Program-made: the position numbers and the translations under genes
The notes under the pieces: model-generated
Seen by the model: the letters and a program-made list of their open reading frames with translations, nothing else
Databases searched by the model: none
Told to the model about the DNA's origin: nothing
Part shown: piece after piece, positions 28,045 to 31,248 of the stretch
Numbering within the stretch: position 1 is the first letter of the stretch
Layout of the letters: every line of letters starts with the position of its first letter
From: Rhodanobacter sp. A1T4
GTDB lineage: Bacteria > Pseudomonadota > Gammaproteobacteria > Xanthomonadales > Rhodanobacteraceae
NCBI RefSeq assembly: GCF_014207185.1
Contig: NZ_JACHCP010000006.1
Coordinates: 372,001-436,000, forward strand
Reading direction: 5' to 3'
Length of the DNA stretch: 64,000 bases

Positions 28045-28902
28045 ATGAAGACACCCAAGGGCCTGCAGGATCTGATCGACGAAGGCGTTATCGACCAGGT
28101 CCTGCGACCGCTGAAGAGCGGCAAAGAAGCTTCCGTTTATGTCGTGCGCTCGGGCGACGATATCCGTTGTGCCAAGGTCTACAAGGACATGGCACAGCGT
28201 AGTTTCCAGGCGCGTGTGCAGTATCAGGAAGGCCGCAAGGTGCGCGGCAGCCGGCAGGCCCGTGCCATGGGCAAGGCCACCAAGTTCGGCCGCAAGGAGG
28301 CCGAGGCCGCCTGGAAGAACGCAGAGGTCGACGCGCTCTATGCGCTCACGGCCGCTGGAGTGCGTGTGCCCAAACCGTATGGTTATTTCAACGGCGTGCT
28401 GGTGATGGAGCTGGTCACCGACGCAGACGGCTACTCCGCCCCGCGTCTGGGCGAAGTGGAGTTGTCAGCGGATACCGCGCGTGATTACCACCGCTTTCTG
28501 ATGCAGCAGGTGGCGCGCATGCTGTGCGTAGGGCTGATCCACGGTGACCTCTCCGAATACAACGTGCTGGTCGGGCCGGAAGGCCCGGTCATCATCGACC
28601 TGCCGCAGGTGGTCAGTGCCTCCGGCAACAACTCGGCGCGCACCATGCTTCGCCGCGACGTCGGCAACATCACCATCAGCCTCTCGCGCTTCGCCGCGGA
28701 ATTGTTGGACAGCCACTACGCCGAAGAGATGTGGGCGCTGTTCGAACTGGGTGAACTGCACCCCGATACCGAACTCACCGGCCACTTCGAATTCGACGAA
28801 AGCATCGCCGACGTCGACAGCGTAATGCAGTCGATCATCGATGCGCGGGAGGAGGCGATCATTCGCCAGCAGGGCAGGGACGAGGCGGCGCAGGCGGATT
28901 GA
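28045..28902 (+). CDS. RIO-type serine protein kinase
   Basis: A 285-residue RIO kinase. The ATP-anchoring Lys44 (CAKVYKD), catalytic loop HGDLSEYN (Asp168, Asn173) and metal-binding Asp185 (IIDLPQ) are all present; there is no activation loop, as usual for RIO enzymes. In archaea and eukaryotes RIO proteins assist small ribosomal subunit maturation; the role of bacterial members is poorly known. A hairpin follows about 40 bases after the stop, and then the cassette cluster begins. Confidence 0.92.
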   Translation: MKTPKGLQDLIDEGVIDQVLRPLKSGKEASVYVVRSGDDIRCAKVYKDMAQRSFQARVQYQEGRKVRGSRQARAMGKATKFGRKEAEAAWKNAEVDALYALTAAGVRVPKPYGYFNGVLVMELVTDADGYSAPRLGEVELSADTARDYHRFLMQQVARMLCVGLIHGDLSEYNVLVGPEGPVIIDLPQVVSASGNNSARTMLRRDVGNITISLSRFAAELLDSHYAEEMWALFELGELHPDTELTGHFEFDESIADVDSVMQSIIDAREEAIIRQQGRDEAAQAD

Positions 28903-28942
28903 GGCGCTGTTTAGGAAGTTTCCGGCAGTCAGCGCAACACGC

Positions 28943-28963
28943 ACTCGTGAGCCGTTTACGAGT
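28943..28963. terminator. Inverted repeat after the RIO kinase gene
   Basis: Arms ACTCGT and ACGAGT (6 bp) around a 9-base loop, 40 bases past the kinase stop. There is no T-tract, so a terminator role is only suggested by position. Confidence 0.3.
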
Positions 28964-28982
28964 ACGGCATTCCATCTTTATG

Positions 28983-29093
28983 GGCGAACTTTGACTTGCC
29001 CTCGTGCATAAGCGGCTTGATATCGTCGTCCGATGATTGGGCTTCAGGTTATTACACGGCGTCGTAGCGGCTCACTTGTCCCAGTAGTTACAC
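28983..29093 (-). other. Possible degenerate attC site
   Basis: Read on the minus strand, this begins three bases after the stop of the gene at 29097-29558 with GTGTAAC (one mismatch to the attC R'' box RYYYAAC) and continues TACTGGGACAAG...CCGCTACGACG, which clearly resembles the left half of the attC at 30085-30131 (TACTCGTTCAAG...CGGCTACGCC). The right end is uncertain; GTTCGCC at 28983-28989 is the best candidate R' box. Internal pairing is poor, so this may be a decayed site. Confidence 0.35.
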
Positions 29094-29096
29094 CGC

Positions 29097-29558
29097 TCAT
29101 TTTTTGATACTGGCGTGATAAGTCCCGACGTCATGCACGCCTCCCCGACCAAACGTATATATATCGCCGGCTGACGAGCCATCCGATGTCACCATGCCGT
29201 CCATCACTAGATAGGCATCGCAGGTGCCCCCCGTGAGGTCGATCTTGATCTTGTTATCAACGAACCTGGCGACACCATATGACGCGAGGGGTAATGGTGG
29301 CGAGAGCACGTCGGGTCGAATGAAATCCACACGGAAGCCATCGCCAACGTCGCCCATACACGATCTTGCATGATCCGAAGTAATCAGCATTTCCAGCTCG
29401 CCGCGGCTTTTGCCATCGGCATTAACCACATCGACTTTCCATGGAATACCATGCGGAAATTTAGCTCGAAGCGCATCCATCGGAAGGGCGTCTGCCGCGA
29501 TGACTCGGCCGGCTGCCGATAAAACAAGAAAGGCAATAAATAGTTTGTGCGACAGCAT
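29097..29558 (-). CDS. Exported hypothetical protein on an integron-type cassette
   Basis: A 153-residue protein with a signal peptide (MLSHKLFIAFLVLSAAGRVIAA). I do not recognise the mature part, which contains two cysteines (SCMGD and GGTCD) that could form a disulfide, and alternating strands near the C-terminus. The start lies only five bases from the end of the attC site at 29564-29623, and its stop is three bases from a degenerate attC-like box, the tight packing expected of a gene cassette. Base composition is lower in GC than in the neighbouring kinase and peptidase genes. Confidence 0.75.
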   Translation of the reverse strand: MLSHKLFIAFLVLSAAGRVIAADALPMDALRAKFPHGIPWKVDVVNADGKSRGELEMLITSDHARSCMGDVGDGFRVDFIRPDVLSPPLPLASYGVARFVDNKIKIDLTGGTCDAYLVMDGMVTSDGSSAGDIYTFGRGGVHDVGTYHASIKK

Positions 29559-29563
29559 GAAGG

Positions 29564-29623
29564 GCCTAACGTTTGACTTAAGCGGACCGCCGAAGGCAGG
29601 TCCGCTTGAAGGAGGGGTTCGGC
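29564..29623 (-). repeat. attC recombination site (60 bp)
   Basis: On the minus strand the site runs from GCCGAAC (R'', one mismatch) to GTTAGGC (R', matching GTTRRRY). Between them is a near-perfect hairpin: a 9-bp stem AAGCGGACC/GGTCCGCTT, a single unpaired T, an inner GCC/GGC stem and a TTC loop. CTTCAAG and AAGTCAAAC occupy the usual L'' and L' positions. Length, boxes and extrahelical base are those of a typical integron attC. It lies between the stop of the VOC protein gene and the start of the next cassette gene, all read in the same direction. Confidence 0.82.
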
Positions 29624-29651
29624 GGCGCATCCTGGCCGATCAGACCAGGGC

Positions 29652-30038
29652 TCATTGGCCCTCGGGCGGCTGCCAGAGTTCGACCTTGTTCCCCTCTGGA
29701 TCCATGACCCAGCCGAACTTGCCATACTCGGAGTCATCCGTTTTCTCGAGTACGTTGCAACCTTCCTCGCGTAGTGCCTGAAGCAGCGAGGTCAAGTTCG
29801 CGACGCGATAGTTGACCATGAAGGTCGACAGGCTTGGCGCGAAGTGTTCGCCATCGGCGGCGCCGATGGACCATGCGGTCGTTCCGTTTGTCGGATTGCC
29901 GGCTGCATCCGCCCACGTAAACGCCGCGCCTCCCCATGCCTGGACGTCGATTCCCAAGTGCTGCTTGTACCAAGCTCGCAGCGCGACAGGTTCCTTCGCG
30001 TTGAAGAAGATCCCTCCGATACCTGTAACTCTCTTCAT
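29652..30038 (-). CDS. VOC/glyoxalase-fold protein on an integron-type cassette
   Basis: A 128-residue vicinal-oxygen-chelate protein. It starts with the usual MKRVTGIGGIFFNAKEP strand and ends with GWVMDPEGNKVELWQP, typical of small glyoxalase/bleomycin-resistance-fold proteins. The family covers glyoxalase, dioxygenases and drug-binding proteins; a specific role cannot be given. GGAGG precedes the ATG by five bases. It is bounded by attC-like sites at 30085-30131 (upstream) and 29564-29623 (downstream), so it is one complete cassette. Confidence 0.88.
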   Translation of the reverse strand: MKRVTGIGGIFFNAKEPVALRAWYKQHLGIDVQAWGGAAFTWADAAGNPTNGTTAWSIGAADGEHFAPSLSTFMVNYRVANLTSLLQALREEGCNVLEKTDDSEYGKFGWVMDPEGNKVELWQPPEGQ

Positions 30039-30084
30039 TTGCGCCTCCGAAGTGCGGCCAAGTTGGAGCGTACCGTGTTGCGGC

Positions 30085-30131
30085 GACTAACGCTGGAGGC
30101 GTAGCCGTCCGCCTTGAACGAGTAGTTAGGC
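30085..30131 (-). repeat. attC-like site (47 bp)
   Basis: On the minus strand: R'' box GCCTAAC (perfect), TACTCGTTCAAG as spacer and L'', a short stem GGCG/CGCC, CTCCAGC as L', and R' box GTTAGTC (one mismatch to GTTRRRY). It is nine bases after the stop of the 83-residue protein gene. The terminal part of the stem is shorter than in standard sites, so recombination competence is uncertain. Confidence 0.65.
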
Positions 30132-30140
30132 ATCGTAGAC

Positions 30141-30392
30141 TCAGCCATCATTCGGAGCTACCAAGATACGTGCCTGCTCCTGGCCATCCACGACGAATGC
30201 GACCCACTCACCACCACTTGGCTTGTGCTCGTGCACAAGATGACAAGGCAAACTGGGGTCCAAGCAGGCTAGACGCTTGACCAGCTGTTTGATCAGCTCG
30301 CGACCTTCCGCGTTGGGATGCGTGACGCCACCCTGAGCCATACCCTGGCGAAGCTTGTAGACCTGCAAGTAGTGTGAAACTGGCAAAGTCAT
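30141..30392 (-). CDS. Hypothetical 83-residue protein on an integron-type cassette
   Basis: A small cytoplasmic protein of unknown function. It begins MTLPVSHYLQVYKLRQGM and ends with a strand-rich segment (WVAFVVDGQEQARILVAP). No catalytic or binding motif is recognisable. The start codon lies seven bases from the R' box of the attC-like site at 30400-30450 and the stop nine bases from the next attC-like site, so the gene fills its cassette. There is no clear Shine-Dalgarno sequence, a common trait of cassette genes. Confidence 0.72.
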   Translation of the reverse strand: MTLPVSHYLQVYKLRQGMAQGGVTHPNAEGRELIKQLVKRLACLDPSLPCHLVHEHKPSGGEWVAFVVDGQEQARILVAPNDG

Positions 30393-30399
30393 GTTTAAT

Positions 30400-30450
30400 G
30401 CCTAACGCCAATTAGACCCCATATCGAGGCATATGCATCGGATGTTCGGC
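30400..30450 (-). repeat. attC-like site (51 bp)
   Basis: On the minus strand the boxes are GCCGAAC (R'', identical to that of the 60-bp site) and GTTAGGC (R', perfect), with CTAATTGGC before R' as in typical L' regions. Between them is a 5-bp stem CATAT/ATATG around GCCTCG. It marks the upstream edge of the 83-residue cassette gene. Confidence 0.58.
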
Positions 30451-30816
30451 TTTAGGTCGTAGCTCGTCAAGCGAGCAAATCTCGCAGATAGATAAGGGTT
30501 TGCCGGGTGACGGCTACGGTGTGGCGGAGCGAGGATGGCGTTCGCATATCTCACGGACTTGCCGTGCATGGCTAGGGCATGGATTTCCGAGGTAGAGCAA
30601 CACAGGAGCGGTTACCGAATGCCCGGCAAGCGCCAAGCGGGGTGTCGTTTTCTACGGGCGTACCGTCTGTCGCCTTACGGGCCTGCTTCGGCTGTTCACC
30701 CATGTTGCCGCGTGCGTGAGGACAAGTAAAAGCAAGCAACTCGGCCTCCGCAGGAGGACGAAAGCTAGCTTCAACGCGTTGATATCATCGCGGCCGTAGC
30801 CACAATACCGCCAACT
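30451..30816. other. 366-bp stretch without a recognisable gene
   Basis: No convincing coding region is seen on either strand between the outermost attC-like site and the FKBP gene. If the attC-like site at 30400-30450 belongs to a cassette, that cassette body should lie here, so this may be a decayed or non-coding cassette. A small inverted repeat GCTCG-tcaag-CGAGC is near 30460. There is no integrase gene. Confidence 0.45.
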
Positions 30817-31248
30817 TCAGGGTGTAACCCCCAGCAACTCCACATCAAACACCAGTGATGCGCCCGGCGGAATGGCATCGCCTGCGCCGTCGTCGCCATA
30901 TCCGAGTGTTGCCGGAATCAGCAGGGTGCGCTTGCCGCCGACGCGCATGCCAGCCACGCCCTGATCCCAGCCAGCGATGACCCGGCCTTCGCCGAGGGGG
31001 AAGGTGAAAGGCGTGCCGCTGTCGAGCGAGCTATCGAATTTCTTGCCGTGTTTGTCCTTGGCGGTTTCGTCGTAGAGCCAGCCGGTGTAGTGCACCTGCA
31101 CTTGCATGCCGGGCTTGGCCACCGCACCGGTGCCGACCTTCTGGTCGATCACGGTGAGCTTGTCCACGCTGCCGTTGGCATGCGCCTGTGGCGTGACGCT
31201 GCAGGCGGCGAGGGCGATCAGGGCGAGCAGGGGCAGCAACCAGCGCAT
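30817..31248 (-). CDS. FKBP-type peptidyl-prolyl isomerase, lipoprotein
   Basis: A 143-residue protein with a lipoprotein signal (lipobox LAAC, Cys16) and one FKBP domain (residues about 35-143). Typical FKBP positions are visible: VHYTGWLYD, KFDSSLDSGTPFTFPLG, VIAGWDQGVAGM and IPPGASLVFDVELL. It should catalyse cis-trans isomerisation of prolyl bonds in exported proteins from the outer or inner membrane. It stands upstream of nothing obvious in an operon; yaeQ lies in the same direction 135 bases before it. Confidence 0.95.
   Translation of the reverse strand: MRWLLPLLALIALAACSVTPQAHANGSVDKLTVIDQKVGTGAVAKPGMQVQVHYTGWLYDETAKDKHGKKFDSSLDSGTPFTFPLGEGRVIAGWDQGVAGMRVGGKRTLLIPATLGYGDDGAGDAIPPGASLVFDVELLGVTP

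Follow-up and report, generated by a model that had tools for sequence, protein, structure and literature searches.

Between a RIO kinase gene and a gene for an FKBP-type isomerase, the window (the whole 64-kb stretch analysed here, G000:C6:372001-436000, from a genome of 5.08 Mb in 31 contigs) holds three cassettes that run leftwards from an attI and its leader (Table 1). The three minus-strand ORFs of 153, 128 and 83 residues reported in a preliminary description of this DNA are all present, and, as it also stated, no integrase gene (intI) adjoins the cassettes; none was found on their FKBP side. NCBIfam returned nothing above cut-off for the three cassette ORFs, Rfam had no match in the window at gathering thresholds, and a plasmid collection searched with 28900-30800 likewise gave none. 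A promoter and terminator scan of 28900-30820 did not rise above shuffles, and we claim no cassette promoter (Pc).

Table 1. Features of the RIO kinase-FKBP interval (window coordinates)
Feature	Position	Strand	Evidence
RIO kinase, left flank	28045..28902	+	Pfam RIO1 E 2.4e-40
Cupin gene remnant	28956..29030	-	58/76 identities, E 1e-10, to cupin ORF of G025
Possible worn attC, cassette 1	29051..29090	-	Local alignment to attC consensus; not called by model R1
Cassette 1 ORF, 153 aa	29097..29558	-	No Pfam/NCBIfam match
Intact attC, end of glyoxalase cassette	29563..29623	-	R1 37.9 bits, E 1.8e-7 (window)
Cassette 2 ORF, 128 aa, glyoxalase-like	29652..30038	-	Pfam PF18029 (Glyoxalase_6) E 1e-5, above cut-off
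attC with 10-base stem deletion, end of cassette 3	30084..30131	-	R1 30.4 bits, E 2e-5; pattern and BLAST match to C12/C5 attC
Cassette 3 ORF, 83 aa, adjoins attI	30141..30392	-	ORF list; no NCBIfam match over cut-off
attI core	30400..30498	-	Model R2 73.8 bits, E 5e-21
attI and leader, homologous to C12	30402..30557	-	133/157 identities, E 1e-44
Gap, leader to FKBP	30558..30816	.	tblastn with C12 intI: no intI remnant
FKBP-type isomerase, right flank	30817..31248	-	Pfam FKBP_C E 1.4e-32

The attC sites were sought with a covariance model (R1) trained on 13 attC from the arrays on C12 and C5 of the same genome, with no window sequence included, and run with filters off across all 64 kb. Exactly two sites in the window have E below 3, 29563-29623 and 30067-30131, the attC proper within the latter being 30084-30131; both have the same orientation. 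At genome scale, the first (E 1.4e-5) is the sole window site under E 1e-3. The second misses this threshold and is supported by 32/35 BLAST identities to a C12 attC together with a pattern match, which reveals a 10-base gap in the stem. Folding as single-stranded DNA gives z of -3.2 and -4.3 for 29562-29625 and of -0.7 and -1.9 for 30084-30131; as an intact C12 attC reaches only -2.1 and -1.5, this measure discriminates poorly. An attC-like trace beyond cassette 1 (29051-29090) is matched in score by 26 of 2000 shuffles and may be the worn last attC of the array.

Of four attC sites originally proposed, therefore, the one at 29564-29623 holds firm, and that at 30084-30131 is real, minus ten bases of its stem. 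The other two go unrecognised as attC by R1, in a covariance-model search of the kind that the preliminary description had itself recommended. Its site at 28983, rejected here, sits inside the remnant of a cupin gene; the corresponding ORF is intact in the nearest relative (G025; Pfam Cupin_2 E 7.7e-11), and the window remnant matches its end. Its rightmost site (30399-30450), put forward as a third attC, is rejected because the sequence is attI. A further attC lies near the end of the window's contig (L222, G000:C6:456534-456594) and is 85% identical over 65 bases to the intact attC of the window.

The attI and leader at the head of the array are 85% identical to those of a complete integron on contig C12. 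The homology stops ten bases before the ATG of intI (MSYDPG...), and another in-frame ATG, farther upstream, lies within the leader common to both. The core is recognised by a second model (R2), built from 12 intI-attached attI of the genus without any window sequence. Past the leader, tblastn with the C12 integrase gave no match even at E 10. The locus thus has the attI and the one-orientation attC cassettes of a complete integron and lacks the adjacent intI; since the array retains its attI, it is to be classed as an integron platform lacking intI rather than as attC clustered on their own. Across the genus, the attI core displays a conserved inverted repeat (CCCC-GAT-TGGGG) beside the crossover, one arm of which is altered in the window copy (30402-30440).

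A RIO kinase gene was found in 43 of the 45 genomes of the genus, and in 38 it is convergent with the FKBP gene on one contig; outside this count are G029 and G041 (no RIO match), G027 (no FKBP), G011, G031 and G037 (different contigs) and G021 (other orientation). The comparison of relatives proposed in the preliminary description reveals that the locus is not fixed: in 34 of the 38 scorable genomes, the gap between the two genes is just 23-356 bp. Among the four larger gaps, attC are seen only in those of the window and of G025; G014 and G039 have other genes in theirs, without attC. The 6.7-kb gap of G025 contains the cupin gene in intact form, a glyoxalase gene 72% identical to cassette 2 and at the same place, and an attC in decay (E 0.001). 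Hence, cassettes were present at this locus before the two genomes diverged, and wear has taken a different course in each copy since. In the stretches around RIO-FKBP from 20 relatives, G025 included, no attI was found (best E 0.14), and attC were found only in G025. Separately, a record titled Nitrococcus mobilis Nb-231 (L061, NZ_CH672427.1) has a RIO kinase with 89% identity to the one in the window, closer than expected for Nitrococcus; transfer and a mixed record are alternative explanations.

The distant integrase that the preliminary description had entertained, along with a genome-wide search for it, does exist. Contig C12 encodes a full-length IntI (C12:130024-130965; TIGR02249 480 bits against a cut-off of 265; both Pfam integrase domains), followed by attI, ten attC (E up to 1e-3) and the contig end. 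On C5, a truncated intI (profile positions 2-107) accompanies an attI and its array. Altogether, the genome has eight attI, six of them without intI, including that of the window, and at each of these orphans attC lie downstream in the correct orientation. It has at least 79 attC at E 1e-3 (R1; 150 of 7107 candidates scored), of which the window supplies one, and the C12 and C16 arrays have 527 bp in common at 98.7%. A transposon with two ORFs, IS3-like by our reading, is inserted at almost identical positions in two of the attC on C12 (L009:6237-7577 and L009:9942-10376), which suggests that it targets attC.

Such orphans, defined as attI that have no match to intI (E up to 1e-30) in the 1.5 kb on the side where it would be expected, recur throughout the genus. 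Model R2 identified 115 attI (E up to 1e-3) in 40 of the 45 genomes: 35 have intI and 80, distributed over 31 genomes, are orphans. Among the attI scoring at least 60 bits, 12 are with intI and 20 without it. An attC lies at most 2 kb downstream in 54 of the 80 orphans (median distance 452 bases); of the rest, 7 reach a contig end within 400 bp and 19 are without attC by the 2-kb rule, including one (L176) with an attC at 2034 bases and some on short contig ends. Many orphans retain a stump of the intI 5' end, and at an E of 1e-8 tblastn searches with the integrase of C12 detect intI fragments at one of the 80. The idea of a single fixed end point in intI for all orphan units was dropped, as the retained 5' end varies. 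An intI match (1e-30), in some cases partial, is present somewhere in 27 of the 31 orphan-bearing genomes; there is none in the other four (G011, G025, G040 and G041), where nothing can therefore serve the orphans in trans now. A 253-bp unit of attI and intI stump occurs twice in G009 (L150 and L151; G009:C1:3010208 and 3081037). The two copies are 96% identical and their flanks are unrelated, as though the platform had itself been duplicated.

When upstream flanks are grouped by single linkage, 47 orphans fall into 11 orthologous clusters, each with 2 to 10 loci. In one cluster, the loci of three species align unbroken across the truncated intI up to the crossover; thus, the loss of intI predates the split of these species. 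The three nevertheless hold different cassettes: the one matching piece, found in two of them, lies far along on the array side. More generally, among 37 ortholog pairs in which both members have attC, 35 lack any match of at least 100 bp in the first kilobase. The other two have a match that lies in the first kilobase in both copies: 103 bp at 79% in one pair and 152 bp at 90%, near position 850, in the other. Of 72 pairs chosen less strictly (at least 800 bp on both sides), none has a match of 150 bp that begins within 400 bp of attI. As a counterexample, L175 and L180, orthologs that the flank rule does not link, share 833 bp at 95% beside attI, where there is no attC. In each of the five ortholog groups examined, the 60 bp of attI adjoining the crossover show higher conservation than the two segments that follow; in these comparisons, which covered orphan attI, the core is conserved less than the flanking genes.

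Cassette sequence also recurs in separate arrays. In G016, a 352-bp cassette bounded by GTTAGGC at each end lies at the attI of the orphan on C1 and, 100% identical, inside the orphan array on C25; the one intI match of this genome is on C7, away from both arrays, whose attI are weak (35.1 and 30.8 bits). Two orphan arrays of G009 have two stretches in common, one of 1195 bp at 99.6% and one of 462 bp at 98%, and the only intI match of that genome is without profile positions 1-37. In G004, the first cassette of one orphan has a counterpart in an orphan array of G007, with 98.3% identity over 470 bp. These near-identical repeats may be read as signs of movement.

In integrons generally, IntI joins attI to the folded attC strand of a circular cassette at GTTAGGC. 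The usual picture is of one integrase with one attI beside it, integrase-less arrays being frozen leftovers or stray insertions. From the comparisons above, we infer that orphan attI may also be loaded in trans. The window locus is an integrase-less platform, one of many orphan attI at fixed sites, and we consider it probable that one integrase serves many of these in trans. An IntI encoded elsewhere, in this genome on C12, would bind both an orphan attI and a circular cassette, the latter at its folded attC strand, and would join the two at GTTAGGC. The orphan platforms would be kept as landing sites while extra copies of the integrase are lost. Comparative signs of cassette insertion after the loss of intI come from other orphans, the window copy not being among them. 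The latter may have received its cassettes in trans or in cis from an intI once present.

The most serious competing explanation is that a complete integron was loaded in cis and then lost its intI, with nothing happening in trans. It is consistent with the intI 5' stumps at many orphans, with the intermediate on C5 of the own genome, where an attI adjoins a truncated intI, with the decay of the window copy itself and with the report, in the part of PMC12444791 available, that Xanthomonas strains sharing an intI lesion usually hold identical arrays. However, cassettes differ at the orthologous orphans with a shared loss of intI, and in G016 one orphan attI carries a cassette identical to one in another array; both points make a history purely in cis unlikely, though by no means far-fetched. 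Differing first cassettes could also stem from the loss of different parts of one older array.

Two other origins of the locus appear much more remote. The window attI might itself have been carried by an unusual cassette, of the delta-attI type known in mobile integrons (according to the abstract of PMC12901181), and inserted like one; the attI that lies within an array on G024:C10 and the twofold attI unit of G009 with its different flanks would fit such a history. Yet, G024:C10 is the sole orphan among 80 with a same-orientation attC on the intI side (by eye, within the fetched stretch), and in the window there is no attC between attI and FKBP, so that we hold this origin to be highly improbable. 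We give next to no credence to the seeding of a cassette cluster at a random chromosomal site (attG-type) by a distant integrase: such an integrase is available on C12, and insertion of this kind was reported by Loot et al. 2024, as cited in the accessible part of PMC12444791, but the array starts at a full attI with its leader, which insertion at attG would not bring.

The window copy is a decaying member of the set of orphan platforms and has probably almost reached the end of its life. We regard it as close to dead because one of its attC is intact, one has a stem deletion and one is hardly recognisable.

The definition of a CALIN (cluster of attC sites lacking an integron integrase) covers attC alone. 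The window resembles one in having two model-recognised attC in one orientation and no intI alongside; with R1 in the window it reaches the threshold of two attC (given in the part of PMC12444791 available), the second attC lying above E 1e-3 genome-wide. It differs from a CALIN in the attI at its head. Accordingly, the 'CALIN-like' label of the preliminary description, and its reading of the locus as a relic or a cluster seeded by a distant integrase, capture the integron-derived, attC-bearing cassettes without a local integrase and the existence of a distant one, and miss the retained attI that makes this an integron platform.

Another parallel comes from Xanthomonas, where, in the sections of PMC12444791 at hand, a sedentary chromosomal integron at ilvD with an inactivated intI is described along with further CALINs at conserved loci. 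There, as here, an array is headed by attI after the loss of intI, and additional clusters occupy conserved positions; here, in contrast, there are many attI per genome, and the arrays differ at orthologous orphan sites rather than being frozen. The delta-attI-type cassettes of mobile integrons (PMC12901181, in part) similarly place attI-derived sequence away from its intI; in these, however, part of attI forms the recombination site of the cassette, whereas here attI and leader head the array at a fixed site. In the open PubMed Central papers covered by our searches, we met no description of recurrent attI-headed integrase-less arrays or of their service in trans.

Orphan attI thus recur and head attC arrays while intI lies elsewhere in the genome, as on C12 here. 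We lean towards the broader view that in Rhodanobacter and related genera a single IntI, or a small number of them, serves in trans many conserved attI that have no intI beside them (a 'distributed integron'). If such loading in trans does take place, a single integrase could put captured genes into many places on the chromosome, and some of the arrays now filed as CALIN would be live, which would offer a testable account of how CALINs originate and persist. Outside the genus, R2 detected 94 attI in 43 of 147 sampled genomes of the family, 27 beside intI and 67 not; the latter, counted by the attI model alone, span 34 genomes and 11 genera.
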